From positions 4,030,001-4,094,000 of the forward strand of contig NC_089430.1 of the NCBI RefSeq assembly GCF_026210795.1: a stretch of 64,000 nucleotides of DNA. The letters run 5' to 3'. How positions within the stretch are numbered: position 1 is the first letter of the stretch; each line of letters begins with the position of its first letter. This DNA is from Rhizophagus irregularis. Its lineage: Eukaryota; Glomeromycota; Glomeromycetes; Glomerales; Glomeraceae. Positions 167-30,252 of the stretch are shown here, in pieces. The notes under the pieces were generated by a model. The model was not told the origin of the DNA. It saw only the letters and a program-made list of their open reading frames with translations, and made no database searches. The position numbers and the translations under genes are program-made.

Positions 167-174
167 GATATCAC

Positions 175-418: not shown

Positions 419-423
419 GATAT

Positions 424-3400
424 CACTGGTCAAAATAGTCCATTTCGTCCAAATTTCAAATTGACGAATATTGGACGAAAGTTGGTCTAATTTTGGCTGA
501 TCATTACCAAAAAAATCGTCAAAATTAAAATGCACGATTTGCACAGTTCGCCTGCCACTTGGCAATTACAATTCGGCAAAAATTCATTAAAAAATCGGAA
601 ATAACTATTCGTCAACTTTTACTAGACATTCGTCCAAATTTCAAATTGCCGAATGTTGGACAAAATTGAGTCTAATTTTGTCTAATTATTAACGATTTTT
701 ATGTATTTAGCTTATTTTTAATTTTGTAATAGCAATCAATTAATTATATTTTACTATTTCGCTTTATTAAAAATTACATATTAAAAAGTATTATATTAAA
801 TTTCTAATATCTACAGTATCTGTCTATTTACACCTACCATCTACCATCCACCATTTACCATTTACTATCGTCAACCATTGTCAACCATTATTAACTATCG
901 TCCACATCCATTGTCCACTACCCATCATTCACCATCCATCGTTCACCATCATCCACCATCATCCACCATTATCTACTCATCCAAAATTATCTACAACTCA
1001 CTCAGCTATCTGACAAAAGTCCGAAAGAGAAACCTAATAAAAAAAATAAAGAAATGGTTAGTAAACCGATTCTTTAATAAAAAAAAATTTAAGTTTCAAA
1101 ATATTTTGCAACTTACCCAACCAAAAATCTGAAGTGGAAACTTACCCATATATCCAAAGCCCAACCAAAAGTCAAAACCTACAAAATAGAAAAAAAATTA
1201 AAATAAAATTTAAAAAAAATCCTTTTTAAAATAAGTTTTGAAGTTTCACTTCAAAACTTACCCATATATCCAAAGCCCAAGAACTGAAAGTTGAAACCTA
1301 CAAAATAGAAAAATAATCAAAAATAAAATTAAAAAATATTTTTTTTTAAATTAAGTTTCAAAGTTTCTTCGAAACATACCCACATATCCAAAGCCCAAGA
1401 ACCGAAAGTCGAAACCTACAAAAAAGAAAAAAGAAACAATTAAAAAATATTTTTTTTTAAAAGTTTCGATTCTTTCATTCCGATCAAAATTTACATATAA
1501 TATATTCAACGTCCAATAACCAAAATCCTAAACCTACAAAATAAAAGAAAAAAAAATTAAAAAAATAATTTTATTTAAAAAAAGTTTTGAAGTTTTTACT
1601 CCGAAACTCACCCGTATATTCAACACCCAAGAACCGAAGGCTAAACCTACAAAATAGAAGAAAAAAAAATTTTAAAAAATATTTTTTAAAAAAAAGTTTT
1701 GAAGTTTTACTTCAAAACCTACCTATATATCCAACGTCTAAGAACTGAAAGAAACCTACAAAATAGAAAAAAGATACAATTAAAAAAAAATTTTGTTTAA
1801 AAAGTATAAAGATTCGTACTTACAAATCTTGGGTATTCTGTTCTTTGGAATCCCACCCGAGACACCTGAGACCTAAAAAAAAAATAGAAAAAGAACGGTT
1901 AGAAACTGTTCATAATATTAAAAATAAAAAATAAAAAATTAAGATTTATAGTTACTTACGAATCTTGATTTTTCATTGTTCTTCGGAACTCGAAAGCCTA
2001 CCAAACCTAAAAAAAATAAAGAAAAGAACAGTTATTAGTAACCGTTCATTAATAAAATTAAAAAAAATAAACAAAAAAATAAACCAAGATTCGTATATAC
2101 TTACGAATCTTGGTTCTTTTCTGATCTTTGGAATTTGGAAGTCCACTGAATCTAAAAAAAAGAACGAACGGTTATTAGTAACCATTCGTTAATAAAATTA
2201 AAAAAAAAATAAAATAAAAACCAAGATTCATATATATACTTACGAATCTTAGTTTTTTTCATTCTTCAGAATTTGGAAGCCTCTCCCGACACTGAACCTA
2301 TAAAAAATAAAAGAAAAAAAACGGTTAATAACCATTCATAATATTAAAAATTAAACAAATAAAAAAATAACCAAGTTTCGAACTTACGAAATTTGGTTTT
2401 TTCCATTCTTCGGAAGTTACCCCAGTACTGAACCTAAAAAAAAAGTAAAAAAAGAACGGTTAGTATTAACCGTTCATATTTTATTAAAAAAAAACAAAAA
2501 AAAAATTTAAAGAATTCATACTTACAAATTCTTTGGATTTCCATTCTTCAGAAGTCACCCGAGAGCCAAACCTAAAAAAAAAAAAAGTAAAAAAGAACGG
2601 TTATTAGTATTAACCGTTCATATTTTATTAAAAAAAACAAAAAAAAAAATTTAAAGAATTCGTACTTACGAATTCTTTGGATTTCCAATCTTCAAAGCCC
2701 ACCCGAGTGCCGAACCTAAAAAAAAGTAAAGAGAACGGTTAGTATTAACCGTTCATATTTTATTAAAAAAAAATAAAAAAAAAATTTAAAGAATTCGTAC
2801 TTACGAATTCTTTGGATTTCCAATTTTTGAAGCCCATCCGAGTGCCAAACCTAAAAAAAAAAGTAAAGAGAACAGTTAGTATTAACCGTTCATATTTTAT
2901 TAAAAAAAAATAAAAAAAAAAATTTAAAGAATTCGTACTTACGAATTCTTTGGATTTCCAATTTTTGAAGCCCATCCGAGTGCCAAACCTAAAAAAAAAG
3001 TAAAGAGAACGGTTAGTATTAACCGTTCATATTTTATTAAAAAAAAAACAAAAAAAAATTTAAAAAATTCGTACTTACGAATTCTTTGGATTTCTATTCT
3101 TCAGAAATCACCCAAGAGCCAAACCTAAAAAAAAAGTAAAATAGAACGGTTATCATTAGTATTAACCATTCATATTTTATTAAAAAAAAATAAAAAAAAA
3201 TCCAAAGAATTCGTACTTACGAATCTTTGGATTTCTGTACTTTAGAAGTCCACCCGAGTGCCGAAACTATAAAAAAGAACGGTTAGTTTTAACCGTTCAT
3301 ATTTTAATTAAAAAAAAAGGGACGAAAGGAAGTGGAAAGGGGAAGGGGAAAGGGGAAAGGGGAAGGGAAGGAAGGAAAGGAAAGGAGAGGAAAGGGGAAA

Positions 3401-3805
3401 GGGAAAGAAGGGAAGGGAAAGGAAGAAATTAAAAAAGTTTAAAAAAGGATGCATAAGATGAATCTTTTTTAAACTTTTAATACGCATATTGCGTAATGTG
3501 TAACATTTAATTAGTAACATAATTCAATCATAGATCATCGAATATAGGCCAATTTGTATTAAGGCCAAATATTCCAAGTCGATCGTGTGGTTAATAAAAA
3601 AATTGATAAAAAAAAAGTACTGGTCGATTTATGGTTTTTTTTTATGTTACAACTCAATCAAAAATTAACCAAAAATCGACCAGTTGATTTATGCCAAAAT
3701 ATTTCCAAATTTTGTAATTAGCCGATTGTATGACGAATCACGTGACGACGATGATGAACTTTTGACGAAAAGTATTAATGCTGAAAGAAATGATTTCGAC
3801 CAGTA
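424..3805. mobile_element. Non-autonomous CACTA-like element, copy 1
   Basis: Begins CACTGGTCAAAATAG and ends in GATTTCGACCAGT plus a mutated final base, the inverted ends expected for the CACTA (En/Spm) superfamily. It encodes no protein. It contains, in order, palindromic subterminal sequence, a CATCCACCAT-type simple repeat (about 840-990), a long array of intron-like units on the minus strand (about 1010-3270), a purine-rich GGGAAAGG tract (3310-3430), and a distal segment containing GATCGACTTGG. The same order occurs inverted at 27364-30252. The left flank is TAT and the right flank TAA. These do not match each other, but they match the flanks of copy 2 crosswise (see findings). Confidence 0.85.
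1010..3270 (-). repeat. Tandem array of micro-exon/intron-like units (CACTA copy 1)
   Basis: About 100-150-bp units, best read on the minus strand. Each has a T-rich tract ending in TAG, a 33-54-nt block, a GTAAGT donor usually within the palindrome GAATTCGTAAGTACGAATTC (variants end in GATTC), an AT-rich stretch, and the palindrome AACGGTTAATACTAACCGTT or a variant. The last contains TACTAAC, the consensus branch-point box. Units near 2600-3060 are nearly identical to each other; those toward 1010 are more diverged. The blocks are often 46 nt and so not multiples of three, which argues against coding. Short reading frames here simply track the repeats. Confidence 0.8.
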
Positions 3806-4386
3806 TAACGTTTCTTTTTTTATTCTTTTTTGTAGATTTCGGCTTCCTGGATTATTTGGGATATTGGGTAAATATGTAGGGAGGTTTGGAATTTACTTTG
3901 AAGAAACATACTAATGTTTCTTTTATATTGGGATATGGGTAGTGTGTGGGGTGGGTTTACTTTAAACAAACATAATAATTTTATTTTGGTTCAAATTAAT
4001 AAATAATTTCATATTACTATATAATAAACTATAAACTAATGAATATATTATGGCTTGAATTAAAATCCGAAAAAAAAAATTCGGTATAATAATAAAAAAA
4101 TTATCAGATTGAACGGATTCAATCCCAATTTTCTGATGGATTTTGGGGCATACCTATACCGTACTGTAAGTCATATATATGACATACTATGCCGAAATAT
4201 TTCACTTTTCACCGATATATAGATGCCCGATATATAACCGATAATATAGATTTTGACCAGTGTGTATCAGTGATATATTGGGTACCCGATGTGTACCCGA
4301 TATATGTAACTGCCCGATATATATCCGATTTATTACCAATATATAGGTGCCTGATATATACCCGATAGCATAGATTTTGACCAGTG
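3806..4386. repeat. Detached arm of another CACTA-like element with duplicated terminus
   Basis: From 3806 to about 4000 there are one to two units with T-rich tract, TTGTAG, a short block, GGTAAA or GGGTAG, then TACTAATG, homologous to the minus-strand units at 30253-30800. The sequence then becomes subterminal-like, with repeated CCGATATAT motifs. Two copies of a terminal sequence ending GATTTTGACCAGTG occur, at 4213-4262 and 4340-4386. These look like a CACTA end that was duplicated. This arm probably belongs with the array starting at 30253 and was separated by the inversion. Confidence 0.55.
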
Positions 4387-4499
4387 CTTGTGCTGCTCAC
4401 ACCCTATAACTCTCAATTAATTGTGCATTTCAAAAAACTAACATTTAAATTAAACAAATTAAACGTTTAGTACATTTTTTTACAAGTTCTCCTAAGTAA

Positions 4500-6046
4500 A
4501 GTGAGCGTCTTAATAATACTTAAAAGGAATGTCAAAGGCATAAAAATACCTCTTTACAAGATATTTCTGATAATTCTAGTGATGATTCTGATGATGATGA
4601 TGATAGCACGAATAAACAAGTACTAAACATTTCAACTAATTTGCAAGAACCAATTTTGCGAAATATTGCAGATATTAAAACCTGATGGAATTCCAAATGG
4701 AACCATTTGTTAAAATTATGTAAAGCAATTGAGTGACTATGTGCAACATTATCTTTATCTGATAATTATGATGATCATGCAGATGGGAGAAGATTTAAAA
4801 AATGGCTTTTATTACTTCATGAATGAATTTATTAAAACAAATTGTAGATCTATTAGAGCAGGATTCTACTTACTTATAATAAAAGTCATTGTAGAAAATT
4901 GATTTTTTACTAATAGTTTTTACCTTACTTTTTTCTTAAATTCTATTGGTTAATTAGCTAAAAAGGAAAAAAATCATAACAATGTAACATAAAATTTCCT
5001 TTTATAGTAGGATCTGCAAAGAATTTTATATATGATTTTTACCTTAAGCCTGAAGGTGACTTATCTTATAAGTAAGCAGGGTCCTATTAGAGCTTTTTGA
5101 AGATGCCGTGACATACTTTAGTAGAACATCCTATGCTACTTTGTCAATTATTTATCCTTTGATTCAAGTTCTCAAATTTAAATATGCTGAAAATGATGAA
5201 GTCAATGATGATGATTTAGAATTAGAACAAGGTAAATTGAATATATTGTTATTATAAATTATTATATTATTTTAAAAATTATATTGCTAATTAATTATAA
5301 TTTATTTAAAGATACTCCAAATTTTTAGCATGAAGAATCAGATGAAGAAAGCGACTTAAGCAGACGCGATAGTGACGAAGATAATTCAGAAACGATACTC
5401 AGGAGCAATCAACAATACATCATCACCAAACTCAATCTAAAGTAGCAGCAGCATCAACTATTCAGCCAGCATAAGATATTCTTAAAATAATGAAACAGAC
5501 TATTTATAATTCTTTGTTTGTCTATTGGAATGAATCCATAATGATTGGTCTTTTAGCATTTCTTTTAGATCTGCGTTTGAAAACACTCTCTAACTGGGAT
5601 GAAGAAACATGCAACAAAGCAAAAACAGAATTAATACATCAATTTAAAGAATTAATTGATTTAAATTTGGTACAATCATCACCATCTGGTAGGCTTAAAA
5701 AGCTAACAATAACATCGTATGATCAATTACGCACTTTATTTTTGGTGTGCAGGTGACAGCAAATCCCTTTTCTGAATTAGAAAGTTATTTGGATCCTATT
5801 CGTACACCAATAGCTGCTTATAGCGTGAATCCTTTTGAGTGGTGGGCAATTCGGAAAACTCAATTTCCTAATGTTGCTAAATTAGCTAGAAAATATTTAT
5901 CTATTTCCAGTTCATCAGTACCCAGTGAAAGATTATTTTCTGACACGGATAACTAAATTACTGCAAAACGTACACATTTAGATTCAAAACTGGCGGGTAA
6001 AATGATGTTTTTAAAGAGAAATTCAAATGCAATTCATATATTTTAG
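4500..6046 (+). pseudogene. hAT transposase pseudogene, interrupted by a MITE
   Basis: A relic of a hAT transposase. An acidic stretch rich in Ser/Asp (about 4570-4620) leads to DIKT-stop-WNSKWN, matching the hAT RWNS motif with R changed to a stop. The sequence continues to FKKWLLLLHE, is broken by the MITE at 4861-5084, and resumes as YATLSIIYPLIQVLKFKY (about 5130-5190). An intron follows near 5232-5320. Later parts include LAFLLDLRLKTLSNW (5540-5600) and the C-terminal dimerisation region NPFEWWAIRKTQFPNVAKLA with SSSSVPSERLFSD, ending with a stop at 6044-6046. Several stops and the insertion show it is inactive. Confidence 0.8.
4861..5084. mobile_element. Mutator-type MITE with 9-bp target duplication
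   Basis: A 224-bp non-coding element with imperfect inverted ends (GGATTCTACTTACTTATAA and its counterpart TTATAAGTAAGCAGGGTCC). It is flanked by the 9-bp direct repeat TATTAGAGC (4851-4859 and 5085-5093), a length typical of Mutator-like elements. It interrupts the hAT pseudogene. Relatives sharing the core around TTTCCTTTTATAGTAGGATC are at 7028-7207, 10081-10303 and 47271-47493. Confidence 0.85.
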
Positions 6047-7670
6047 TTGAAGTATTTTTCACAATTGTAAATTGAAATTTAAATAAAAAACTTCTTAAAT
6101 CTGTTCCAAATTACAATTTACTGTATATAATATTGTATGATAATGTATGTAAATCAAATCACTAAAATGATTAATTAAAATTATACTTCTCCGCTAATTA
6201 ATTACGTCATATTTCGGTGAACGGACTAATTCATTATTTATTATAAAATTACTATGAATTAATTACGTCTGTCAAAATAAATTTAATTAGTATTTTGTCA
6301 TTTTAACAAAAAGTATAATTAAAATATTAAATATATAATAATATGCAATAATTTTATTAATTTAATTTAATAATTACGAAATAAATACAAATTAAATTTT
6401 GTTTATTAACAACAAACCCATTTTAAATACTGCGCCAATAAACCACCCAATTTCAACTGGATACGATTTTAAAAATTACATGGATATCCAGATGATCATT
6501 TATGATACGGTTCCAATCTCTAATATTAATGAAGATTTTAAAAACTGTAAGTTATGATGAAACTTACCATTTTTATTTTTTTATTTTATTTTTTTTTTTA
6601 ATAAAAAGTATGTATTCAGAAAAAATTTATGGTTATTTATTTCTTTATATATAACGTTTACTAATTAATTTAACTTATTTATTAGTAAGCTCTTTGAATT
6701 TATTATTTACAATTAAATCAGAATTTATTATTTTTTATTATTCTAGAGAAATATGTAATATATGTAATTATATGAAATAAATAAATATACGTTTATACAA
6801 TTTAATAAATACATATTAATAATAAATAAATATAAATAAATATATATATATTAATAAATAAAATAATAAATAAATATCTTAGGAGATTTTTCCAATTCTT
6901 AGGAATTCTATAAACATTTTTAATTCTAAAAATCCGCTGAGGTAGGGAAGAATCTACACAAATCCTTACTATTTACAGAAAATAAGGATTTCACATGGAT
7001 CTTTACTCCTAAAACATTACCGATGTTAAGGTAAAAATTATATATAAAATTCTTTGCAGATCCTACTATAAAAGGAAATTTTATATTACATTGTTATAAT
7101 TTCCTTTTTAGCTAATTAACCAATAAAATTTAAGAAAAAAGTAAGGTAAAAACTATTAGTAAAGGACTAATTTTCTACAGTGACCTTTATTATAAGTAAG
7201 CAGGATCCTGGTATATCCTAAAAAATGCAACAAATGTGTTCTAAAATATATAGCTATTTTAAAAATCTTTTTGCATCTTATTTTGATAAACTTAGTACAA
7301 CTCTAGATATGAATAGGTATTTTTACAGACTTTTACATAATGATATAATATAAAGAACTAGATGAGTTTAAGAAGAAAAATTAGGTGATACACTAAAAAT
7401 AAATCCTACATCACGAAATTTAATCAAATAGGAGTCTTGTATTTATCAAATGACAGTATTTGATAAGTATTAAAAATTTGCATTTATTAAGTAATAAAAA
7501 AATAAAATACTTAAATATTACAATATTTTATTATTTATTAATTATTTAATTTTTTAAGCATTTTTTTAATACTTTAATTTAACATTCATAGATACTTATC
7601 AATATATCTTGTATCAATAAGTGCTATTTATAAATATTTAGTAAATGCTTTGATAAACATTATGATGTAC
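6047..7670. other. Intergenic AT-rich DNA with a truncated Mutator-type MITE
   Basis: No gene is visible. At about 7028-7207 there is a diverged, inverted copy of the 220-bp Mutator-type MITE. Its right end CTTATTATAAGTAAGCAGGATCC is recognisable (ends near 7208), but the left end is degraded and no target duplication can be assigned. The rest is simple AT-rich sequence, with TAAATA-rich runs at 6770-6880. Confidence 0.5.
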
Positions 7671-9445
7671 CACTAGTCAAAATAAGGCAAATCAGAAATA
7701 AAGCAAATCATCTTTATTTCGGCTAAATTTTGGCTAATAATCAATGATCATCTGTATATCAGGTGATATTTGGTGTAGCCGATTTCTGATTTCACTAGTT
7801 GAAAAAGACCAGTCTATATTCAATTAAAAATTCAACTATGATTTATGATTAGACATTGGTCAAATAATCTAATTAAACATCATGTGTTACGCGTATCAAA
7901 AGATATTTTTTAAACTTTTCCCTTTCCCTTCTTTTCACTTCTCTTCGTCTCTTACTCCTTTACTTTCCCTTGTCCTTCCTTATTATCCATCCTTCCCTTC
8001 CTCTATTATCTTTTCCTTTCCCTTTCGTCTTTCCCTTACTTCCCCTTTCGCTCTCTCCCTTTTCTTATACCTTTCTTCTGCCTCTTTTTCTTAAAAGTAA
8101 TGTAAGTTTTGTTTCAAAACTTACATATTTTTTTTTAATTTATTTTTTTTTAATTTTATATTTTTTTTAATTTAAGAAATGAATTAACGTTTCTTTTCAT
8201 TGTTTTTTTTTGTAGGACGCTGACTTTAACACAAAACTGGACTTTAAGATAAAAACGGGAAAGGAGAAGTTTTGTTAATTTAAGAAATGAACTAACGTTT
8301 CTTTTTATTATTTTTTTTGTAGGATGCATAGGAGAACGCTGGCTTTAACATAAAACTGGACTTTAAGGTAAAAAATAGGGGAAGGAAGATGAGATTTAAG
8401 AAACAGATTAATTAAGTCTTTGGTTTTTATTTTTTAAATATTTCGGAATGGTTACTAACAGTTCCTTTTTCTTTTTATGATAGGTTCAGTGGATTTCCGA
8501 TAAATGAATGAACCAAGATTTGTAAGTACGAATCTTAGTTTATTTATTTTTTTTATTACTTAGAATGGTTTACTAACCGTTCCTTTCTTTTATTTTTTAG
8601 GTTTCGTTTAACTTCTGAAGATTAGAAAAAAAGGAACCAAGATTCGTAAGTACGAATCTTGGTTTATTTTTGTTTTTTTTTATTACTTGGAACGGTTTAC
8701 TAACCGTCCTTTTCTTTTATTTTTTAGGTTTCGGTTGACTTCTGAAGATCAAAAAAAAAGGAACTAAGATTCGTAAATACGAATCTTAGTTTATTTTTTA
8801 TTTTTTTTATTATTTTAGAATGGTTTACTAACTGTTCCTTTCTTTTTTTTTTATAGGTAGGCTTCCAAGTTCTGAAGAATGGAAAAAGATCAAGATTTGT
8901 AAGTATATATGAATCTTGGTTAAATTTTTTTTATTAATATTAATGAATGGTTACTAATAACCGTTCTTTTTTTTATAGGTTCAAGTGGATTTCTGATGAA
9001 TGGATAAACTAAAACTAAGATTTGTACTAAAACCAAGATTCGTAAGTATGAATCTTGGTTTATTTTATTATTATTATTTTATTATAATTTTAAATTAGCA
9101 ATATTTATTTGTAATTTAGATAGATGCTAATAATAATAATATAATTATAAAGTTTTTAAGCATTTAATTAATAAATACATTTAAAAAATTTGATAATAAA
9201 AATTGAAATAAATTCAGAAAAAAATAGTCCGATTTTTGTCCAATTTAAGTTCTGAAGTACATCTGATTGATTGTCTGAATTTAGTCTGATTTAATTCTGA
9301 TTTATATCCAATTTAAATTCCAAAGTACATTTAATTGATAACAATCAGAATATATTTTTTTTGCAAAAATTGGATATATTTAAGCCGTAATTCAACCTAA
9401 AATCAGATATCCAATTTTAGCCGATTTGCCTTATTTCGACTAGTG
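7671..9445. mobile_element. Non-autonomous CACTA element with 3-bp target duplication
   Basis: Inverted ends CACTAGTCAAAATAAGGC and GCCTTATTTCGACTAGTG, flanked by the exact 3-bp repeat TAC (7668-7670 and 9446-9448), the hallmark of CACTA (En/Spm) transposition. It is 1775 bp long and has no transposase. After a pyrimidine-rich tract (7915-8090) comes an array of intron-like units on the plus strand (about 8100-9070): T-rich tract, TAG, a block of roughly 35-55 nt, GTAAGTACGAATC, then GGTTTACTAACCGTTC containing TACTAAC. The organisation matches the larger copies at 424 and 27364, but the terminal sequence defines a separate subfamily. Confidence 0.88.
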
Positions 9446-10080
9446 TACCAATAATAATTCAGTATTTTAGCCTTATAAGAAAATCAGAATACAGATATAA
9501 AAATTATTAAAGAACTAAAATACTAATTACTGATCATTTCATTTGTATTACAAAATAAACCTCTTAATATTATACAAGTCCAGCCATTTATTCCAAAAAG
9601 AAAGAATAAACAGATTACATATATATGCTGATATCATCTTACAAGGCTTAGTCAGTGATAATGATAGGCCTATAACTCTCACCTTTTGGCTTTAAATAAA
9701 GCGTTTAATATACTTTTAAGAAGAGCAATACATTAAAATTTAAAATGCAAATGCAAAAGGATAAAAAGTTGAAGCATTATAAATTGAAGAAACATATATT
9801 TACAATCATGATTGGATACACTCTTATAAATAAAGAGAGTATTAGAAAGATTGTAATATATAATATTTCTGTAATATTTATTTAATTCAATATTTTTAAT
9901 GGCTTCAAACTTTGGGATTATACTATTGCAATAAAAATTAAAATGCAAAAGAAGTACATAATAGTTATACTATCAATAGAATTTTTTGAAAGAATAATAA
10001 ATTTATAAAATGAGAAACTTAAACAACTCCTTTTTACGATATGCTTATATAATAGTTTTCAGTATCCTAAACTTTGAAAA
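9446..10080. other. Intergenic AT-rich DNA, no feature seen
   Basis: No gene, terminal repeat pair or tandem repeat could be recognised. The short open frames present have strongly AT-driven composition (Ile, Asn, Tyr, Lys) and no motif. Confidence 0.5.
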
Positions 10081-10303
10081 GACTCCACTAACTTATAATA
10101 AAGATTACCATAAAAAATTGATCTTTTATTAATAATTTTTACCTTACTTTTTTCTTAAATTTTATTGATTAATTAGCTAAAAAAGAAAAAAATTATAACA
10201 ATATAACATAAAATTTCTTTTTATAGTAAGATCTACAAAAAATTTTATATATGATTTTTACCTTAAGTCTGAAGATGACCTATCTTATAAGTAAGTGAAG
10301 TCC
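10081..10303. mobile_element. Mutator-type MITE, third copy
   Basis: Homologous along its length to the MITE at 4861-5084, including the core that runs into TTTCTTTTTATAGTAAGATC. Its ends are GACTCCACTAACTTATAA and CTTATAAGTAAGTGAAGTCC. The flanks ACTTTGAAA and ACTTTTAAA match at 8 of 9 bases, consistent with a decayed 9-bp target duplication. Confidence 0.75.
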
Positions 10304-10602
10304 TACTTTTAAAGTAACATAAAAAATGTAAAAGATTTCAAGGTGTATTAATAAACATACTTATTGGCCTTAATGCAAGTGTTTTATATCTGCCAATAAT
10401 CTAATTTAATTATTGTTAGCATCTTATAAAAGTTGCTATGCATATAAGATAATTTAAGAATATGAGCATAGAAAGTTAATTATATATTATGATATATGAA
10501 TTAGTTTGGATAAAGTATTAAATATAGAATTTCCTTCAAAAAATATAAAGGTAAATAAAAAAGGTCTTTTTGTCCATCTTAAATAGACTTAGAAATAGGC
10601 TA

Positions 10603-10880
10603 CACTGGTAAAAAAATGGTATATCACTGCATATCCATACACATATCTTACATATATCGAATGCTGAAAATGTAGAAAATATGCACAAATAATACACGTA
10701 TCATATACATATAGATACTTATATATATAGTATACCTATCAGGTACCTGATATATGTATGATATATATATTAGTACCCGATATGTGTATGATATGTGTAT
10801 TATTTGTGTATGATTTTCTACATTTTAAGTACCCAATATGTGTAAGATATGTGTAGGATAAATCATTTTTTTCCACAGAG
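10603..10880. mobile_element. Putative CACTA-like MITE
   Basis: About 278 bp with imperfect inverted ends: CACTGGTAAAAAAATGG on the left and, on the opposite strand at the right, CTCTGTGGAAAAAAATG. Internal mirrored repeats are built on ACACATATCTTACATAT and CGATATGTGTAAGATATG. Flanks TAC or CTA are ambiguous, so the exact ends and duplication are not certain. The ACACATAT/CGATATGTG motif recurs at 40680-41058. Confidence 0.55.
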
Positions 10881-11656
10881 TACCAAAGCAACGAATCCTG
10901 CTAGAAGTAAAAGCTAAGGTAAAAATCTCAATATATTGCAAAAGAAATAACTTAATATTCAGTTTAAGAAGGGAAAGTTTTATAAAAATAATATGTACAA
11001 AAAAAGCTTTAACGGTTATTATTTACTAATCCTTTTTTTAAAAAATTTTTTACTCTGACTTTTATTTTACTTTTTTTATTTTCTTGTTTTTATATCCTAA
11101 ATTTTATGTTGCAATTACAGTAAGTCTTTGAATATTTACAGGAAAGAAAGGTTCTCCTCTAAAAAAGAACTTCTTCAAGAAGCATTTACTTTTCTAGTCC
11201 AGAATTCCAACTGACAGTACACATATGATTGTTCCATCATAAATTAATAAGTGATTTAATACTTATTAAATTAGTTTAAAAATTTTTTTATATATTATAT
11301 GTATACATATTATGAATTTATTTTTTTTACTAATAAAATATTCAAATGTACTGCAGCCAAAAAAAAAATATATATATAAAGTTAAAAATAGTATTCAAAA
11401 TATATATATATTTTTTTTAAATACTTTGAATTTGAGGTTGCATCATGGTTTTTAATAATGATGTGATCGTTTAAGTGACGAATTCACATTCTTTTATGAA
11501 AAGTAGTCTTGTTTTATAATGCTTAATTCTTATATGTATTTGTTTATCTTATATTTTGTAAGTTTTTATATATGTAAGTAGTTGTGATTATAATAGTACA
11601 TGATCGCATCTATAATAAAGTATTAAAAAAAAAAAAAAATATTTTTTTAAATAAAC

Positions 11657-12616: not shown

Positions 12617-13088
12617 AGCAGGCTAAAATATGCTTATTTTATGGTTTTTAAATTTATATTAATCTTAATTTATGAAAAAATTAATCAAATTATATTATAT
12701 TAAATTACATGATTCTACTCTTTAAACATTATCTATAATGGATCAATTATCTAATTAGCTATAATAAAAATAATTTGATAAACTGGATTATATGATTATT
12801 AGCCAATAAAATTTAAGTAGTAAATTTTAATTTTAGTTTGAATTATAAAAATCTTAATTTTAGCTGAAATTATATATTATTATATTCAATTAAAAATATT
12901 TTATATTAATTTTTATGACTTCTATAATTTAAAATTAAGATAAAAAAATTAAATTATAGTGATATATTAACATTAAAAATTCAATATAATAGATTTTTAA
13001 TATGGAGATGTCCATAGCAAAAGGAAGGAATAGGCCAAAAAATTCAAATTTGAGATTTTATTATAATAAAAAAATATAGTTTTTTATT
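12617..13088. other. AT-rich intergenic DNA, nothing recognised
   Basis: Very AT-rich sequence with no coding potential or repeat pair that I could see. Confidence 0.45.
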
Positions 13089-13097
13089 AATAATATA

Positions 13098-13529: not shown

Positions 13530-13782
13530 AATAATATATTAGTAAAAAAAGTTTAATTTTGAAATTTTCTTATTATTTGCATTTTACTTTTATAGTATTA
13601 ACAAGCAACATAAACTTATTAAAAGAAAATTAATACTCTTAGTAAATTGCCTGTAAAATTTAGTTTTAAATAAAAAAAAAGGTCCAAAAATCAATTTATT
13701 TCACAATTAAGTGATGATCTGCCAAATTTATCACGTGATTTATATTGCGATTTTTTTAAAATTACAGAATTATCTTTTTGCT

Positions 13783-19422: not shown

Positions 19423-20078
19423 TTATATAGGTTTTTAAAATTAATAATAAATTTATAAATTAATTTTATATTAGAAGTTAATTTAAAATTAATTTATTTA
19501 AATTTATATAAATATTTATTAAGATGTAAAATTTTAGTAAAATTTAATAAAGTAAATTTTATTTTGATTACATATAATACATTAAAATTTTCAATATTTT
19601 ATAATAAAATTCACTAAAAAAAAATTTTACTTTAATTTATATAATATATATATAAACTAATTTTTAAAGATTTTTTTTAGTTTTTTTTAAAATTATATAA
19701 TAAAGGTAAATTTATCTGGAATAATTTTTATCTTTAATAAAAGTTACTTCTAATAAGCATTAAATTTACTTTAAATTTATAAAATTTATAAATTTATAAA
19801 TATATCAGTCATTAATATAAATAATTAAAAATTCTATTAAATTATAATACTTACTTATTAGCAACAATATAACTAATTTTATTTTGGATTTATTTTATCA
19901 ATTCTGAAAGGAAATATATAAAAAAAAAATCAGTATAATTTAAATCAATAAATATAATATCACTTATTTTTATTTTACTTTTATTTTTATTTGTATTTTG
20001 ATGATTACATCTTATTGAATAAATATAGCTCATGATAATTTGTTTATATGGTATATAAATTTAAGAAAATTTCAAAGT
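19423..20078. other. AT-rich intergenic DNA downstream of the GTPase gene
   Basis: Very AT-rich sequence with no gene. A self-complementary stretch occurs around 19520-19640 (AAAATTTTAGTAAAATTTAA and a mirrored TTTATAATAAAATTCAC), perhaps a decayed short inverted-repeat element, but no duplication was identified. Confidence 0.4.
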
Positions 20079-20455
20079 TTACACATGATGTTTAAACACG
20101 GATCATGTGAAATATAATAACACCAATATCACACCCTTTTACTTTTTTTATATAATATATGTATTTTTGACTGCTCTGCAAGTTTACTTAAGGCATTAAA
20201 GGGGGTTTTGAATGTCGTTTTTGACTTATATATGAAAACTGTCTTTGTCAATCATTTCCTAAATTTTTTTAAGAGCGATTAGCAAAATCACTTATTCATA
20301 GGTAAAGTCAAAACTGACATTTTAAAGCACCTTTAATGCCTTAGGTAAACTTGTAGAGCAGGCAAAAATCCATTTATTTACTAATTTTAAAGTTAATACT
20401 ATTAGTCAAAATGGCAATAATCACATGACCCAGATTCAAACACCTGTGTATAAAT
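20079..20455. mobile_element. Putative TIR element (TCATGTGATTATTG family) with a nested MITE
   Basis: Left end ACACATGATGTTTAAACACG then GATCATGTGAAATATAATAA. The right end, on the opposite strand, is ACACAGGTGTTTGAATCTGG then GTCATGTGATTATTGCCATT. The same end type is at 41885-42255. The interior is split by another palindromic MITE at 20161-20373. Exact ends and target duplication are unclear. Confidence 0.5.
20161..20373. mobile_element. Palindromic MITE nested in a second element
   Basis: About 213 bp with long inverted arms. ATTTTTGACTGCTCTGCAAG followed by TTTACTTAAGGCATTAAAGG on the left mirrors CCTTTAATGCCTTAGGTAAA followed by CTTGTAGAGCAGGCAAAAAT on the right. The arms pair over more than 40 bp. 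No coding content. Confidence 0.75.
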
Positions 20456-21570
20456 AGAAATTGCCTAAACTTAATATTAATAAAGTATATATAGATCATT
20501 AAAATATATATACAATATATATAACTTAGTTATAATGATTAAAATTGATGAAATTCAAATCACTACTACTTATTCAAAAAAAAATGATAAATGTAAAGTA
20601 TAAGCTATACAATAAAAAAACATTAAAACGAATATGAACATAAAATTATAGTTATAAAATGTTTTTTAATAAAGTAATAGCAATTCAAAATTAAAATATT
20701 TTACTATTAAATTAAATATTTGGTCACTTTACTTTGACCAAAATTATATGTAAATCTGGCCAAAATTACTTTTAGTTATATAAATCTAGCTAAAATTATA
20801 TTTAAGTCTAGCTAAAATTACAAATTATAATTTAAACTATATAAATCTAGCCAATAAAATTGCAAATTTAATGTATCATATGATATACAGTCAACTCTCT
20901 TTATAGTCATCCATTTGGAACAGTCCATATTTGATGATTATAAAGAGATGTGACTATATAAAAAATTTCTTATATTAGTATATCATAATTCCGGCCAAAA
21001 ATTAACATAATTTTGGCCAAAATTATACTCAAAACTTTATTGTATTGTAACTCTGCCAATATTAGTCATAGAAAGATAATCTTACCACCATTTGATTCGT
21101 CTTGATGAGTCAGTTCTAATGATATAAAATACATCGAAATCTGATCACTAGATTAATTTTCAAAATTAAAAAAATATTAATGGTTTTTGTGTAATAACTT
21201 TGCCAATATTGATCCTAAAGAGATGATCTTACTACCATTCGATTCGTCTTAATGCAACGAATCTAATGGTATAAAATACATCAAAATCTAATCACTAAAT
21301 CAATTTCCAAAATTAAAAAATATTAAATGGTTTTTAAGTAGTAACTCCTTCAATATTGATCACAGAGAGATGAGCTTACTGCCATTTGATTTATTTTGAT
21401 GAGGCAATTTCAACGAGCTATTAATCGTCTTTTTACAATCACTAGGTACTGAGAAATTTAGAAAAATGTTAAATAGCGTAGTAAACGTAAATCAAGAAAT
21501 ATAATAATGCCGATGCTTAACATTTTGTTGAATAACTTATTAACCAATGATCGTAAAAGAATAAAACTAC

Positions 21571-23880
21571 AAAAAAAACTCTCTCCCGTTACCCTCATGA
21601 CAGTATTTTGTTGGAAAAAATATTTTTATTTTTCTGGGTTCTTCTTTCTTTTTATCCTTCCGTGAACTTTTAGCCTTCGAACTTCCGCTTCCCTTGAATT
21701 ATTTTAATATTACTTTTACTTTATTTTTTCTCCTTTTTGAGAACCTTTCTCTTATATTTTTTACTATTTTCTTTGGTCCACTTTCTTTATGGGATGTTAG
21801 AAAGAAAAATTCTCTTGTCCCCGTTCCAAACGAAAAACTAGTAATTTAACTTCCTGTTCTCCCCTTCTATTGCCCATGATGAAAAATGGTGCAAACTCGC
21901 TGACAAGTTAATGGACTCACACCTTGCTTATATCAAGTTGCCTTTAATTCATAGATGGCAAAGTGTAATTGCTCATGAAAAAAATTTGAAGGATTTTGAA
22001 TTCTCATATATCCCCTTCTACCCTTCTGATAATAAAGTTCTTACTACTTATCGTCTTGTATTAGCAGACTCTTCTCGTTGTCTCAAACTTTTTCTTTCAC
22101 ATGACCAAGAATATTTGAAATTTGTGGATTCTTGGTGTAACCCTTCTGAAAAATTGATATTGAAAGATTTGCCTGATTTTCACCTTATTTATCCAGGATT
22201 TTTCAGAAATTCTTTATCTTCTGAATTTACGCCTCCTGCAGTTGCTCCTATATTTACGCTTAATGATCATCAAGATGACTCTTCTAATATGGCGTTAGAT
22301 CCTGTTTTTCAATCTGTAATACAAGACCCTGCTTTTTAACGGATTTGTCCTATAGGACCTGATCTATATACCTTTGGCTCTGATGATGAAATGGACGAAT
22401 TTCTTTTTCCTGACCAACATACAAAAAGTTTTTAGAAAAATTCTGAAAATCTTCTGAAAAATACTGAAATCTGCAGTAAAATGTCTGAAATCATTCAAGA
22501 TTTAAAAAATTTACTGGATTTTTCAAAAACCTTTCAGAAAATCTGGCAAAATTTGAATAGATTTCGTACGCTGTTCCTGACTATTTGATTCAACTTACTC
22601 CAATTGATTATGAGAATAATGCTACTAGGTTTCACTTTTCTTGCACATTTAAATATAAGATGATAATGATGATGACCTCTCTGCTTATATTCCTCTATTG
22701 CTTGATAGCATTCTTTCAGCATTGAAAGTGTCGGATGCTTTGAACTCCACTTATTGCCTTGCAAAATTTACTCGTCTTATTGCTAAGCTCCCTGCTTTAC
22801 ATGCCGCTGCTAAAGCTAAGTATACTCTACCTATTGTTACCCCTCCTAGACAGGTCGATTCTTTTATAGATTTTGATGAACTTCTCTCAGTTTACGACAT
22901 TCCTCTTCTGCTGTGTACTTTTAACGCATCTATGTTGAATGATGATTCTGATGATGAATCATATGATTCTGATAATGACTCGTTTTTCTCTTTTTCATCT
23001 TTTGATAACTCTTCTTTTATAAGTCCTCTCTCAGAATCTATTGTTTTTCTTCTGATCGCTTTTCCTCTATTTTGCTTTGATATTGATCCTTTGGTGGCAG
23101 TTTCTACTATAATGTTTTCAAATGATATTTCTAAATATAAACCCTTTTCTATCAGCTCTTTTTTTGATTTTTCAAAATTTGAATGTTGTCATAAATGGAA
23201 AATTTATCATTTTTCTCTTCTTCCTGTCATGATATTTATCAGTTAGATCAGATATTTTTCACTTGTTCTATCTAGTTTTGGTCTTACTTAAGAATTATAG
23301 ATGATCTTCTTAAGCTGACCTTTTCTTGTTCGATTAATAGGTTTATTAACCTATTTTCCTCTTGGCCTGGTTAGATTACTTTTTTTGTTTTGTTTGTTTA
23401 GGTCGTTTGTTCACTTTATAGTTGTGTAGTTATTTAAGGCATGTGATGTTTCTTAATTTGCCATCCCCTTCTATATGATCTATAATTTTATTTTATAGTT
23501 CTCTTTTCTTTATTATTTTGCTTTATTTACAACTATTTTGTTTTCTTTTTGCACCTTTTCGTTAAGAATTTTCTGTAGGTAATCTTTTTCTGGTTCTTCT
23601 AACCTTTTTGTAGTTTTTGCTTTTATTACCTTTTATTGGTTTAGTTTTCTTTTTATAAGAAACTATTTAGTCGCCTCACAGTGATTTTATATTAATCTAG
23701 AGGATGTAGTGCCTTTATTAATAATTGTTTATAGTTTTTTTTGAGCTTTAACTTTCATTTTATTTTGTACTATGAGATTATTCTTTGTTTCTTTATTTGT
23801 TTTTTTTGAATTTATATTTCTTTTTAATTTGTATATTTCTATAAAAATAAATAAAAAACAGCATAAAGACCTTTTGTACA
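21571..23880. mobile_element. Insertion of unknown type in pogo-like copy A
   Basis: Absent from the homologous position in copy C. It is flanked by an 18-19-bp imperfect direct repeat, GTAAAAGAATAAAACTAC (21553-21570) and GTAAAAGGATAAAAGCTAC (23881-23899). A duplication of that length at an A-rich site suggests target-primed (non-LTR) retrotransposition, but there is no reverse transcriptase and no clear poly(A) tail. The interior has a reading-frame remnant near the 5' side and a T-rich 3' half (23080-23860). Identity unknown. Confidence 0.55.
21860..23246 (+). pseudogene. Unrecognised broken gene within the 2.3 kb insertion
   Basis: The open frame 21863-22339 has the look of real protein: balanced composition with segments such as HDEKWCKLADKLMDSHLA and PLIHRWQSVIAHEKN, and an acidic DHQDDSSN near the end. 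The in-frame sequence continues upstream of the first ATG (21911) back to a stop near 21852 without a start codon. A second frame, from about 22655 to 23246, has DDDLSAYIPLLLDSILSALK, KLPALHAAAKAKYTLPIV and an Asp/Ser-rich stretch. Stops lie between the two, so this looks like one decayed gene. I do not recognise the family; it could be an ORF1-like protein of a retroelement or a captured host gene. Confidence 0.4.
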
Positions 23881-24178
23881 GTAAAAGGATAAAAGCTACT
23901 ACCATTTGATTTGTCTCAGTAAGATGATTCTGAACATAGCTTTTCATCTTTGTATGATTATTAGATGCCAAGTTATTTAATATATTCTTTATATAACTGT
24001 GATTATAAACAGTTCTTTTTAATATAAGATTTTTGAGGATAGGTGTGATAGTGACTATAGATAGATTGTGACTATATAGGATAGATTTTAATAATAAAGT
24101 GTTTTGAACATTCAACTGGTGTAACTATATAGTAGAATGTGACTATAATTGAAGTGACTATAGAGAGAGTTGACTGTA

Positions 24179-25714
24179 ATTTGATATTTAAAAAGTTGTA
24201 TGCACTGTATATATATAATACTTACTTATTTAATAATATAAATTTGTATAATATTAAAAATATAATTTATAAATTTAGTTATACTGTAATAAATAAGCTG
24301 ACTGTCATCTATAAATTATGGTTTCATAATTTGGCTTTTTCTGTTTTATAATTCATAGTTAATTTATTAAAAAAAAAATTAAAAAATTTAGAATTTTTAA
24401 TTTTTTTTTTCAAATATTGGTTAGAACTTTTATTAAACTTTATTAAGTTATATTCGAATTACAAAAAATTTTGAAGACCTTCTACTTTTACTTTGCAATA
24501 AAAATAATAAAAATGTTTAGGTATACTAATATTAAATGATACCAAATAAATTAAAGAAATAAAACGAAAAAATAAAAATAAAAATAAAGTAAAAAATAAA
24601 AAAGAAATAATCAGTAATAAAGCCTTTTACTAATAACTACATCTTAAAATTAAGATAATCTAAACATTTTGTTGAACTTATTAAAATACTCCTAATTTTC
24701 TTAATATTAATCTAATTTCAGCTAAAACTATTAGTTTGTTAATATTATTCAAGATTTATTTATCTTCATAATTTATTTAATTACTTTTTACTTTTTACTT
24801 AATTGCATTATATTAGTAGTATTTTGAGAAATCTTGAAGTTATCATCTTGCTTTATTTTTTAATTGTGAAATATAATATATATAATATCTTTTTCAATTA
24901 TCAGTAAATTTATCTAAGCTAAATATCTTACCAATAACTTTATCTAAACTAGTTTATAACTTATAGTAATTATAAGCTTATGAATACCAGAATTCTGAAC
25001 ATTACTAAAGCAATAGGAGCCTGAACAATACTGATACAACTCACATTTGAGTTTGTGTAGAGTTTATATTAAAATTTTTCAAAAGTTGCGTATTACAGAG
25101 ATATTTTAAAATTTTGTTATCCTACATATTTCTGTTTTTAACACAATTAGTGATTTGATTTTAATAAAATTTATATCATTAAATTCGTCTCGATAAGAGG
25201 ATTCTAATTATAGTAAAATTGAATGTTTAGCTTCAATATTGACAGTATTATATCATAAAATGTATTTTTATTTCAGTATTTAAAGTTTACTTGTGAGTTA
25301 TATTAGTATTATTTGGGTCTTAAAGCAACTCAGATTTTATATAACTAAAATTTTAAAATGTTATATTTCAGTAAATATTACACCTAAAAAGATGAACTAT
25401 ATATCAAAATATTTGTCTTGTTAAAATAAATTTAATAAACTAAAGATCTAATTACTAAATTCTGAAATAGTAAAATTTGAAGCTAAAATCTACATATAAT
25501 TTTATACATTTGAAACAAAAATTAATTATAAGGTTTATACAAATTCAAATCTGAGTTTTTTTAGTGATGTTTAGGATTCTTAAATTATATATAAAGTCAA
25601 AATTAAAACCCAAAAGTTGAAATATTTTAACTTGAGGAGGTCAAAAGTCAAAATTAAAGTCAAAATAGTCAAAATTATATTATACAGTCAACTTTTAATA
25701 TAATGAAATGATTG
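24179..25714. other. AT-rich intergenic DNA, no gene seen
   Basis: No convincing coding sequence or terminal repeat pair. Degenerate sequence shared with 45350-45620 (around AAAATTTGAAGTTAAAATCTA with TTATACAAATTTAGATCTGA) shows that an old dispersed repeat covers roughly 25330-25570. Confidence 0.45.
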
Positions 25715-26080
25715 TTCAGATTAGTGTTCTGCATGGATCGAATTAGACTGAATTAGGATAGATTTGGAATTTGGTTCGATCAAATCGAATCTGAAAATTT
25801 GAATTCAGATCGAGACAAATCAGTTCAAATCCGATTCGAGATTTGATTCGAATTTGATTTGATTTGATTTAGATTTGATCTGATTCAAATCAAATCAATC
25901 GAATCAAATCTTGAATCATTTGAACAGATTCGTAATTTGATTTGATTCGATTTGGATTTGATTTTGATTTAAAATTCAATTTTATTCGGTTTGAAAATTT
26001 GATTCGAATCTGAATTTGATTTGAAATTTGATTCAATTCAGTTTGAAAATTTGATTTGAATTTGTTCAAATTTAATAATT
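25715..26080. repeat. Degenerate GATTTGATTC simple repeat beginning with a hAT-MITE-like end
   Basis: Begins TTAGTGTTCTGCATGGATCG, the same end sequence as the hAT-type MITE at 47656 (TAGTGTTCTGCATGAATC), and then becomes roughly 350 bp of degenerate GATTYGATTTG/GAATCAAATC repeats. No matching right end was found, so the element may be truncated or overgrown by the simple repeat. Confidence 0.55.
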
Positions 26081-26349
26081 TAATTATTATTTATATTAAA
26101 AATTTACAAGGATGGTTAGCAATACTTATTAAAAAATATTTATTTTTTATTTGCAATATTAATTGTTATTAATGTTATATTATATTAATTATAAAATTAA
26201 AAAAAAAACTAATTATTTGAATTTCAAATAAATCGCAATGGCAAATACTAATAATTGTTAAAATAAAAAATTAAAAATTAGTTAGTTAAAATTTCTACAA
26301 CGATCCTAATATTATTAAAATTAAAATTAATTATTCAAATAAATCACTT

Positions 26350-27363
26350 AATGAATTCGAAAACTATGATTTTAAGCATATGCAGGATCTTATAGTTTTT
26401 CTTTCCAATTTGTTACACTTATCAGTAATTAAATTTTTACTGATTGAAAAACATTCTTCAAAGGAACGCTAGTAGAAGGTATAGCTAAATAATCCATCGC
26501 CATCTTAGCAAGTCTAGGAAACTGGGTTTGGTTTACTTTCCACTATTGAAGTGGATCAACGCTTTTATCACAAACTGGTGATAAAAGGTATACTTGAAAT
26601 TTATCAATCTCTTGAGTATATTTTCATTTAAATATTTTTGATGTAATTGAATTTTTATATTCATTATTCAAAGAATTGCTTAAAGTTGAACTTGAGTTTG
26701 GATTAGAATAAGTAGAATTATAAACATTTAAAAATCTAAAAATTAATATTTAAATATTGTTAGTATATATATAATATTATAAATTATAACTAAAAATAAA
26801 TTTTAAAATATTAAAAATATTAACTTTTCGTGAATTTTCTTCCTCTGATCATCATTCCATGTCTCGTCATTATAGTACTTCATTTTAAGCCTTGGATCTA
26901 AAATTGTTACAATAACATACGCATCATTCGTCTTGTTATAGTATTGGAGTAATTTTTCCCAGCTATTTGTAGCTGCTTTTTTAATAATTGATTCTTTATC
27001 TACACTTCCATTTTCATCATCACCTTCGTTTTCATCTTCATTTTCATTTACATTTTCATCTTCAAATATATAATCTTCCATATGATCAATTAAAGCATTA
27101 TATAAAGGAATGAGCATTGAAAGTGTAGGATAAGATGAACCGGACATTAATACTGTTATTTCTTTAAATTTTTCAAGAAATAATTTAACTTTCTCAAGTT
27201 CAGTTCATTTATCATCCATAATAACGAAATTTTTAAGATCTTTTTCAGAAAGTGCAAGGGAATTAAGCGCCTAGTAAAATTTTATAAATTAATAAATATT
27301 AATTAATAATAAATAAAGTTATATAATTTTACTTCTTTTAAATATAAAGTTCTATTGATCATA
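26350..27363 (-). pseudogene. hAT transposase fragment (C-terminal side of the interrupted gene)
   Basis: Minus-strand continuation of the gene whose upstream part is at 1-166. Reading down from 27363: MINRTLYLKE, an intron with donor GTAAAATT and acceptor ACTAG (about 27271-27331), then ALNSLALSEKDLK, KFKEITVLMSGSSYPTLSML (27110-27180), an acidic insertion DENVNENEDENEG, and SWEKLLQYYNKTNDAYVIVT with ILDPRLKMKYY (26860-26970). After a second AT-rich gap come WKVNQTQFPRLAKMAMDYLA and IPSTSVPLK (about 26440-26560), the hAT C-terminal dimerisation region. Stops near the end, and loss of its 5' part to the CACTA insertion, make it inactive. Confidence 0.8.
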
Positions 27364-27879
27364 CACTGGTTGAAATCATTTCTTTCGGCATTAATACCTT
27401 TCGTCAAAAGTTTGTCATCATCATCATGTGATTCATTACACAATCGGCTAATTACAAAATTCGGAAATATTTCGGCATAAATCAACTGGTCGATTTTTGA
27501 TTAATTTTTGATTGAGTTGTAATATAAAAAAAAACCATAAATCGACCAGTACTTTTTTTTTATCGATTTTTTTATTAACGACACGATCGACTTGGAATAT
27601 TTGGCCTTAATACAAATTGGCCTATATTCGATGATCTACGATTGAATTATGTTAATAATTAAATGTTACACGTTACGTGATATGCGTATTAAAAGTTTAA
27701 AAAAGATTTATCTTATGCATCCTTTTTTAAACTTTTTTAATTTCTTCCTTTCCCTTCCCTTCTTTCCCTTTCCCCCTTTTCTCTCCTTTCCTTTCCTTCT
27801 CTTCCTTCCCCTTTCCCCTTTCTCCTTTCACTTTCTTTCGTCCCTTTTTTTAATTAAAATATGAACGGTTAAAACTAAC

Positions 27880-29690
27880 CGTTCTTTTTTACTTTTTTTT
27901 TAGTTTCAGCACTCGGGTGGACTTCTGAAGTACAGAAATCCAAAGATTCGTAAGTACGAATTCTTTGGATTTTTTTTTATTTTTTTTTAATAAAATATGA
28001 ACGGTTAATACTAATGATAACCGTTCTATTTTACTTTTTTTTTTAGGTTCGACTCTTGGGTGATTTCCGAAGAATGGAAATCCAAAGAATTCGTAAGTAC
28101 GAATTCTTTAAATTTTTTTTTTTGTTTTTTTTTAATAAAATATGAACGGTTAATACTAACCGTTTTCTTTACTTTTTTTTTAGGTTTGGCACTCGGATGG
28201 GCTTTTAAAATTGGAAATCCAAAGAATTCGTAAGTACGAATTCTTTAAATTTTTTTTTTTATTTTTTTTAATAAAATATGAACAGTTAATACTAACCGTT
28301 CTCTTTACTTTTTTTTTTAGGTTTGACACTCGGGTGGGCTTTGAAGATTGGAAATCCAAAGAATTCGTAAGTACGAATTCTTTAAATTTTTTTTTTGTTT
28401 TTTTTTAATAAAATATGAACGGTTAATACTAATAACCGTTCTTTTTTACTTTTTTTTTTAGGTTCGGCTCTCAGGTGACTTCTGAAGGTAAATCCAAAGA
28501 ATTTGTAAGTATGAATTCTTTAAATTTTTTTTGTTTTTTTAATAAAATATGAACAGTTAATACTAACCGCTCTTTTTTACTTTTTTTTTTAGGTTCGGCA
28601 CTGGGGTGACTTCCGAAGAATGGAAAAAACCAAATTTCGTAAGTTCAAAACTTGGTTATTTTTTTTTTGTTTAATTTTTAATATTATGAACGGTTATTAA
28701 CCGTTCTTTTTCTTTTATTTTTTATAGGTTCAGTGTCAGGAGAGGCTTCCAAATTCCGAAGAATGAAAAAAACCAAGATTCGTAAGTATATATATGAATC
28801 TTGGTTTTTTATTTTGTTTTTTTTTTAATTTTATTAACGAACGGTTACTAATAACCGTTCGTTCTTTTTTTAGATTCAGTGAACTTCCAAATTCCGAAGA
28901 TCAGAAAAGAACCAAGATTCGTAAGTATATACGAATCTTGGTTTATTTTTTTGTTTATTTTTTTTAATTTTATTAATGAACGGTTACTAATAACCGTTCT
29001 TTTTTTTAAAAAATATTTTTTAAAATTTTTTTTTCTTCTATTTTGTAGGTTTGGCCTTCAGTTCTTGGGTGTTGAATATACGGGTGAGTTTCGGAGTAAA
29101 AACTTCAAAACTTTTTTTAAATAAAATTATTTTTTTTAATTTTTTTTCTTCTATTTTGTAGGTTTAGGATTTTAGTTATTGGACGTTGAATATATTATAT
29201 GTAAGTTTCGATCAGAATGAAAGAATCGAAACTTTTAAAAAAAAATATTTTTTAATTGTTTCTTTTTTCTTTTTTGTAGGTTTTGACTTTCGGTTCTTGG
29301 GCTTTGGATATGTGGATAAGTTTTGAAGAAACTTCGAAACTTAATTTAAAAAAAAATATTTTTTAATTTTATTTTTGATTATTTTTCTATTTTGTAGGTT
29401 TCAACTTTCGGTTCTTGGGCTTTGGATATATGGGTAAGTTTGAAGTGAAACTTCGAAACTTATTTTAAAAAAGGATTTTTTTTTAAATTTTATTTTAATT
29501 TTTTTTCTATTTTGTAGGTTTTGGCTTTTGGTTGGGCTTTGGATATATGGGTAAGTTTCCACTTCAGATTTTTGGTTGGATAAGTTTCGAAATATTTTGA
29601 AACTTAAATTTTTTTTTATTAAAGAATCGGTTTACTAACCGTTTCTTTATTTTTTTTTGTTAGGTTTCTCTTTCGGACTTTTGTCAGATA
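27880..29690 (+). repeat. Tandem array of micro-exon/intron-like units (CACTA copy 2)
   Basis: About 14 consecutive units on the plus strand. A clear example: TACTAAC at 28154-28160, T-rich tract, acceptor TAG at 28181-28183, a 46-nt block 28184-28229, donor GTAAGT at 28230-28235. By eye the blocks are 46, 46, 46, 46, 43, 46, 54, 47, 35, 39, 36, 36 and 33 nt long, followed by a last incomplete one. The early units share GAATTCGTAAGTACGAATTC at the donor and AACGGTTAATACTAACCGTT at the branch point, both palindromic. Later units (29050-29560) have GGGTAAGTTT donors and TTTTGTAG acceptors. One unit has ATAAGT instead of GTAAGT. Lengths not divisible by three argue against a coding role. Confidence 0.85.
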
Positions 29691-29699
29691 GCTGAGTGA

Positions 29700-29860
29700 G
29701 TTGTAGATAATTTTGGATGAGTAGATGATGGTGGATGATGGTGGATGATGGTGAACGATGGATGGTGAATGATGGGTAGTGGACAATGGATGTGGACGAT
29801 AGTTAATAATGGTTGACGATGGTTGACGATGGTAAATGGTAAATGGTGGATGGTAGATGG
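29700..29860. repeat. Simple repeat, GATGGTGGAT type
   Basis: Degenerate tandem repeat of GATGGTGGATGATGGTGAAC-like units within CACTA copy 2. The reverse-complement counterpart in copy 1 is at about 840-990. Confidence 0.85.
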
Positions 29861-30252
29861 TAGGTGTAAATAGACAGATACTGTAGATATTAGAAATTTA
29901 ATTTTTAATAAAGCGAAATAGTAAAATATAATTAATTGATTGCTATTACAAAATTAAAAATAAGCTAAATACATAAAAATCGTTAATAATTAGACAAAAT
30001 TAGACTCAATTTCGTCTAACATTCGGCAATTTGAAATTTAGACGAATGTCTAGTAAAGGTTGACGAATAGTTTATTTCCAATTTTTTAATGAATTTTTGC
30101 CGAATTGTGATTGCCAAGTGGCAGGCGAACTGTGCAAATCGTCCATTTTAATTTTGACGATTTTTTTGGCAATGATCAGCCAAAATTAGACCAACTTTCG
30201 TCCAACATTCGTCAATTTAAAATTTGGACGAAATGGACTATTTTGACCAGTG

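Follow-up and report, generated by a model that had tools for sequence, protein, structure and literature searches.

A 23.6-kb inversion between two opposed CACTA-type transposon copies in Rhizophagus irregularis, probably generated by ectopic recombination

Inversions produced by ectopic recombination between transposable elements are recognised by three signs, namely the opposite orientation of the elements at the two breakpoints, exchanged target duplications and chimeric copies (Delprat et al. 2009, PMC2775673), and inversions arising through non-allelic homologous recombination are described as leaving elements with non-identical flanks (PMC8225341). About half of the genome of the arbuscular mycorrhizal fungus Rhizophagus irregularis is reported as transposable elements, to which its rearrangement rates have been linked, and the CACTA/CMC/EnSpm superfamily is among those reported from it (PMC11075540). 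Here we describe a stretch of 64,000 nucleotides of R. irregularis DNA, hereafter the window (assembly GCF_026210795.1, contig NC_089430.1, positions 4,030,001 to 4,094,000), in which two inverted CACTA-type copies enclose a segment of 23.6 kb and which displays two of these signs, opposite orientation at the breakpoints and exchanged target duplications. The inversion itself is very probably real, and we hold with good confidence that ectopic homologous recombination between the two copies is its best explanation.

Copy 1 occupies positions 424..3805 (+), with its left (L) end at 424 and its right (R) end at 3805, while copy 2, an inverted member of the same family, occupies 27364..30252 (-), with its R end at 27364 and its L end at 30252; BLAST and a reading of the flanks bore out the positions and the inverted, CACTA-like character that the original prediction had given to both. 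In BLAST the copies aligned in inverted orientation with 95.1% identity over 424-1696 and 87.9% over 2156-3807. A global alignment showed 98 substitutions in 2,800 aligned bases and 10 more in the last 72, together with two large indels (330 and 135 bp, 465 bp together, the smaller being about one length of the modules described below) and three of 7-22 bp, an overall divergence of about 3.5-4% plus indels. The terminal inverted repeats start with CACT and read, from the outside in, CACTGGTC at the L end and TACTGGTC at the R end of copy 1, the latter with its first base changed, and CACTGGTT at the R end and CACTGGTC at the L end of copy 2; copy 1 ends in A at the position where the family has G. 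Copy 1 is flanked by TAT at its L end (421..423, +) and TAA at its R end (3806..3808, +), and copy 2 by ATA at its R end (27361..27363, +) and TTA at its L end (30253..30255, +), the junctions being TAT/CACTGG...CCAGTA/TAA and ATA/CACTGG...CCAGTG/TTA. Read from L to R, copy 1 lies in TAT...TAA and copy 2 in TAA...TAT, and the unequal flanks of each copy match only when crossed with those of the other.

Flipping the segment between the copies (3806..27363, 23,558 bp) yields TAT/TAT and TTA/TTA around them, the crossed duplications that had been predicted; from the 3-mer frequencies of the window, two random 3-mers match by chance with a probability of 0.030, and both crossed pairs with one of 0.0009. 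The same flip rejoins two interrupted sequences, as the original prediction had also claimed. One is a hAT transposase gene, whose upstream part (110..169, +) runs in from the left of the window and ends in ...STRWNSTFD, and whose downstream part (26447..27362, -) runs from MINRTLYLKE... to the C-terminal dimerisation region (Dimer_Tnp_hAT, 8.3e-13); the upstream part alone matched no Pfam family. The flip joins ...NVSTRWNSTFD (ending at 169) to MINRTLYLKE... (27362 downwards), with a single TAT between the flanks, and the motif RWNST-x-[DE]MI is uninterrupted in nine of ten fetched hAT paralog loci (L060, L061 and L063-L069; it was not found in L062), which were retrieved with the joined peptide but cross the junction in their own DNA. 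The other is a tandem array, one side of which lies at 3806..3940 (-), its reverse complement ending in ...GAAACGTTA and going on at 30253, with the continuation at 30253..30808 (-). Here the flip restores the array unit GAAACGTTAGTACGTTTCTTCAAAGTAAATTC, identical at 32 of 32 positions to the unit at 30691, compared with 9/32 for the unflipped flanks of copy 1, 26/32 for those of copy 2 and 29 for the best of 100,000 random joins; most of the 26 at copy 2 stems from the array side, and the informative part of the score is the nine bases on the other side. Because the flip heals both the hAT gene and the array unit, the un-inverted order is the older state.

Searches of the genome (146.7 Mb in 32 contigs, the window being C2:4030001-4094000) with the ends of the family gave at least 56 L-end and at least 43 R-end matches, counting fragments and copies 1 and 2 themselves. 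Equal 3-bp flanks were found in all seven other members evaluated, named here by contig (C10, TAA; C17, ATG; C5, ATA; C29, GAA; C25, ATT; C18, CAA; C14, AAT), three of these duplications containing G or C (ATG, GAA, CAA) and the C25 and C18 members having the first bases of one end damaged. Left out of this count were the end pair C22:868215/871153, which is without an L terminus (its R end, L057, was uncounted), and three pairs that were far apart or partial (C22:1254215/1267826, C22:850105/871153 and C15:4851446/4877828). Since all seven have equal flanks, the mismatch between the own flanks of copies 1 and 2 is exceptional among the members evaluated. The C14 member, a relative of 7.4 kb (C14:923477-930873) with the R end (query 1-230), the L end (query 1-198) and AAT/AAT flanks, encloses a Transposase_21 (PF02992) match at 925583-926065 with one TGA inside it. 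By coordinates, a PF02992 match also occurs, some 2.1 kb inward of the R end, at four or more further loci (C29:434311, C3:415438, C15:2508671 and C29:1593943), and at C22:578157 one lies just outside it. An assignment to the CACTA/EnSpm transposons, in line with the CACTA-like label of the original prediction, thus agrees with the CACT repeats, with the 3-bp duplications and with the Transposase_21 of a relative that shares both ends, the duplications of copies 1 and 2 themselves appearing only with their flanks crossed. Both copies contain zero open frames of 150 aa or more and are non-autonomous CACTA-type elements. Plavaka (PF18759) was considered as the transposase partner and rejected: among the matches listed, none lies inside the seven members, and one overlaps the left boundary of the C29 copy. 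The window also holds, at 34363-37541 (-), three consecutive long open frames, the middle one of which is Transposase_21-like (PF02992, 1.5e-4, below the curated cut-off). This gene too was set aside as a partner of copies 1 and 2, as a link to their ends was not established, nor were element ends of its own found.

In the sequence of events that we favour, two oppositely oriented members of one non-autonomous CACTA-type family would have inserted at a distance of about 23.6 kb from one another. One (A) would have entered the hAT transposase gene, duplicating TAT, and the other (B) the tandem array, duplicating TAA/TTA; both sites are visible in the restored sequence. Homologous recombination between A and B, within some 3 kb of shared sequence, would then have inverted the intervening DNA, and would have left two copies that are each part A and part B and each carry one flank from each insertion; the cyclin and GTPase genes of the segment would have been moved and reversed. 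Apart from the hAT gene and the array, both already split by the insertions, no interrupted sequence was seen at the breakpoints. Ectopic recombination, as originally predicted, accounts for the crossed flanks and for both rejoined sequences. The alignment of the two copies that had been proposed for locating the crossover could be made, but a sliding comparison along it displayed no sharp change and the crossover was not located.

As regards the third sign, chimerism, copies 1 and 2 proved to be mutual nearest relatives at either end, and no third close copy, which would mark their halves, was present among the members fetched. Several observations weigh against recombination between two separately inserted copies. 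In trees of the ends, built with 19 (L) and 31 (R) other members, copies 1 and 2 are sisters on both sides (support 0.937 for L and 0.906 for R). Their divergence is uneven, at 16/655 in the L end and 31/481 in the R end (Fisher p=0.0013; p=0.17 without CpG transitions). At the R end, moreover, only five of 13 non-CpG transitions are common to other copies (0.24 expected per site), with no clear excess, and between-site variation in mutation rate (hotspots) could also produce the pattern of the L end. That L-end pattern itself speaks for recombination: in 13 of the 16 differences between the copies, the two states also occur in other copies (21 of 31 at the R end), as they do in eight of nine once CpG transitions and transversions are set aside, as they were for the R-end transitions, the expectation being 0.23 per site if they were new. 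The duplicates of the copies themselves (L058, L059) and two further duplicates (L044, L050) were excluded from these shared-state counts. Six other L-end pairs resemble the L end of the copies (6/8, 4/5, 5/7, 16/22, 13/17 and 19/26), while the R-end comparison pairs (0/0, 3/4 and 1/1) are too small to judge, the 5/13 of the copies lying below the two that hold any. When viral contigs were scanned for an exact 27-base sequence combining the hAT side with TAT, there was no match; such a scan could reveal relatives only and not tell the two orders apart, and near relatives may be absent from such contigs.

These features of the ends bear chiefly on hybrid-element insertion, which is named as a look-alike of ectopic recombination that leaves identical copies (PMC2775673). 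Here a single copy in the hAT gene would be present on two sister chromatids, and the L end from one and the R end from the other would transpose together into the array, giving an inversion, exchanged 3-bp flanks and two copies identical at birth. According to the model in the same source, it predicts the same crossed flanks with only one earlier insertion; the mutual closeness of copies 1 and 2 at both ends is expected if they were once one element, and their R-end differences, CpG transitions aside, are mostly unshared. Against this, copies identical at birth now differ by the 3.5-4% and the 330- and 135-bp indels given above, and the shared states of their L-end differences are like those of separately inserted pairs. 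We consider hybrid-element insertion the weaker explanation and rather improbable. The copies being two long inverted repeats, within which the event exactly falls and at which assemblers can fail, an assembly error is a further reading, in which the true order would be un-inverted and the assembler would have crossed over at the copies. The assembly of isolate DAOM197198 by Manley et al. (2023) was made from Nanopore reads with an N50 of 24,957 bp at 77-85x mean coverage per contig, and consists of 32 scaffolds and 42 contigs with 10 gaps (PMC10234402); the window fits as part of it and is taken as such. Reads of this length far exceed copies of 2.9-3.4 kb, the window is without N, and the copies can be told apart by their divergence and by the 465 bp in their two large indels; an error of this kind is unlikely.

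Reversed-ends (alternative) transposition between copies 1 and 2, of the kind seen with maize Ac/fAc, is a known source of inversions with elements at both breakpoints, but the duplication that it makes is new and lies at a fresh site (PMC8225341). Reasoning from geometry, it needs an L and an R end whose relative orientation is reversed, whereas the neighbouring ends of an inverted pair are R and R; the healing of two older sequences by both crossed pairs is not among its predictions. We regard it as highly improbable. Ectopic recombination between the two copies is retained as the preferred explanation of the inversion.

Much of both copies is filled by tandem exon-intron-like modules, at 27860-29700 (+) in copy 2 and at 1030-3320 (-) in copy 1. 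The modules carry a donor GTAAGT within the palindrome GAATTCGTAAGTACGAATTC, a branch-site-like TACTAAC within AACGGTTAATACTAACCGTT, and a T-rich stretch with a TAG acceptor. On the + strand of copy 2 we recognised 14 exon-like units of 32-54 nt, hand-picked from donor-like and acceptor-like sites with four alternative sites left out, each of which has, on its upstream side, a T-rich stretch that closes with TAG and, directly after it, GTAAGT or a near form of this (two GTGAGT, one ATAAGT); the intron-like units are about 80-130 nt long. A GTAAGT-like donor, a TACTAAC-like branch site and a T-rich acceptor are splice signals, and a fixed pattern of the three had 22 matches in the window, whereas 20 second-order Markov copies of it averaged 0.8 and reached 3 at most. 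Copies 1 and 2 account for 16 of these matches, every one of which runs in the R-to-L sense, with no antisense match. Across related loci, 18 L-end loci had 25 sense and 0 antisense matches (control 0.0) and 28 R-end loci had 14 sense and 2 antisense matches, from five of the 28 (control 0.3), or 39 sense and 2 antisense together, counts that are non-independent in that the copies are related; the full C29 copy had no match to the fixed pattern. A query of one module found 168 matches on many contigs. Pieces from the donor region fold as a hairpin (z -4.4 and -4.3) with weaker folding of those around the branch site (z -2.0 and -2.6), while the folding of two whole introns was not outstanding (z -0.5 and -1.1). 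Once the exons are joined, each of the three frames is interrupted by stops, so the modules are unlikely to be coding. A literature search over titles and the beginnings of abstracts found no CACTA element described with tandem modules of this exon-intron kind, and the modules may be more novel than the inversion. As a tentative joint reading from sequence, we suggest that the copies may represent an undescribed kind of CACTA-derived element, with exon/intron-like arrays in one orientation whose 5' splice and branch sites each lie in a palindrome, which might be transcribed and spliced into multi-intron non-coding RNAs and whose arrays might supply repeated homology for the flipping of genes, possibly polymorphic among nuclei. 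DAOM197198 is called homokaryotic in PMC10234402.

Similar exon-intron-like arrays of other sequence lie at 30253-30808, 3806-3940, 31314-31745 and 8424-9026, with two matches to the fixed pattern in the first, three in the last and none in 31314-31745 or 3806-3940. A small element in the segment (7671..9445), with ends CACTAGTC...GACTAGTG and TAC/TAC flanks, likewise carries a module array resembling that of the copies. Between the upstream hAT part and copy 1 lies a miniature inverted-repeat transposable element (MITE) of 244 bp (175..418) with the 8-bp duplication GATATCAC (167-174 and 419-426), presumably of the hAT type, an assignment made by this duplication alone. Since the duplication takes in the first CAC of copy 1, the MITE arrived at this site later than the L end of copy 1, and may have preceded or followed the inversion. 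Among the 40 places scored, of 1182 candidates in a genome search, the MITE itself was at 100% and the 39 others at 98%; the element is abundant and young-looking, and is present again in the window at 45044-45287. The two genes that had been placed in the inverted segment were recognised there by Pfam, a B-type cyclin gene by an exon at 15480..16052 (+) (Cyclin_N, 3.8e-45), 100% identical to an R. irregularis protein over 93% of the query and without a match in phage records, and a GTPase gene by an exon at 18489..18791 (+) (MMR_HSR1, 7e-11). Long open frames at 43062-44800 derive from a repeat of about 30 bp that is open in several frames and are likely to be repeat and not a gene. A search at the Rfam gathering threshold gave no match.

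Flips mediated by transposons are already known elsewhere, and the case in R. irregularis is new and cleanly readable. The word "inversion" does not occur in the main text of PMC11075540 or PMC10234402, and the search of titles and abstract beginnings found no inversion mediated by a transposable element in an arbuscular mycorrhizal fungus. For a single assembly the evidence is unusually complete, as elements, target sites and segment can be read base by base; the junction sequences can be typed in other isolates, and crossed duplications combined with healed interrupted sequences offer a template for finding such events in one assembly.

Among described systems, the locus is like the Galileo inversion 2z3 of Drosophila buzzatii, with DNA-transposon copies in opposite orientation at the breakpoints, exchanged duplications and ectopic recombination inferred (PMC2775673). 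In contrast to this locus, un-inverted chromosomes were sequenced for Galileo and both copies shown to be chimeric, whereas in R. irregularis one gene and one array, both of them split, reveal the ancestral order, the duplications are of 3 and not 7 bp, and the segment is of 23.6 kb. The maize Ac/fAc inversions likewise have DNA transposons at both breakpoints, but carry new 8-bp duplications at a new site (PMC8225341), in place of the exchange of two old ones seen here. The CACTA/CMC/EnSpm superfamily is reported from R. irregularis in PMC11075540, and copies 1 and 2 resemble it by their CACT... ends and 3-bp duplications and by Transposase_21 in a relative bearing these ends. Copies 1 and 2 differ in being non-autonomous and in a design, not mentioned in the description consulted, that consists largely of tandem exon-intron-like modules.

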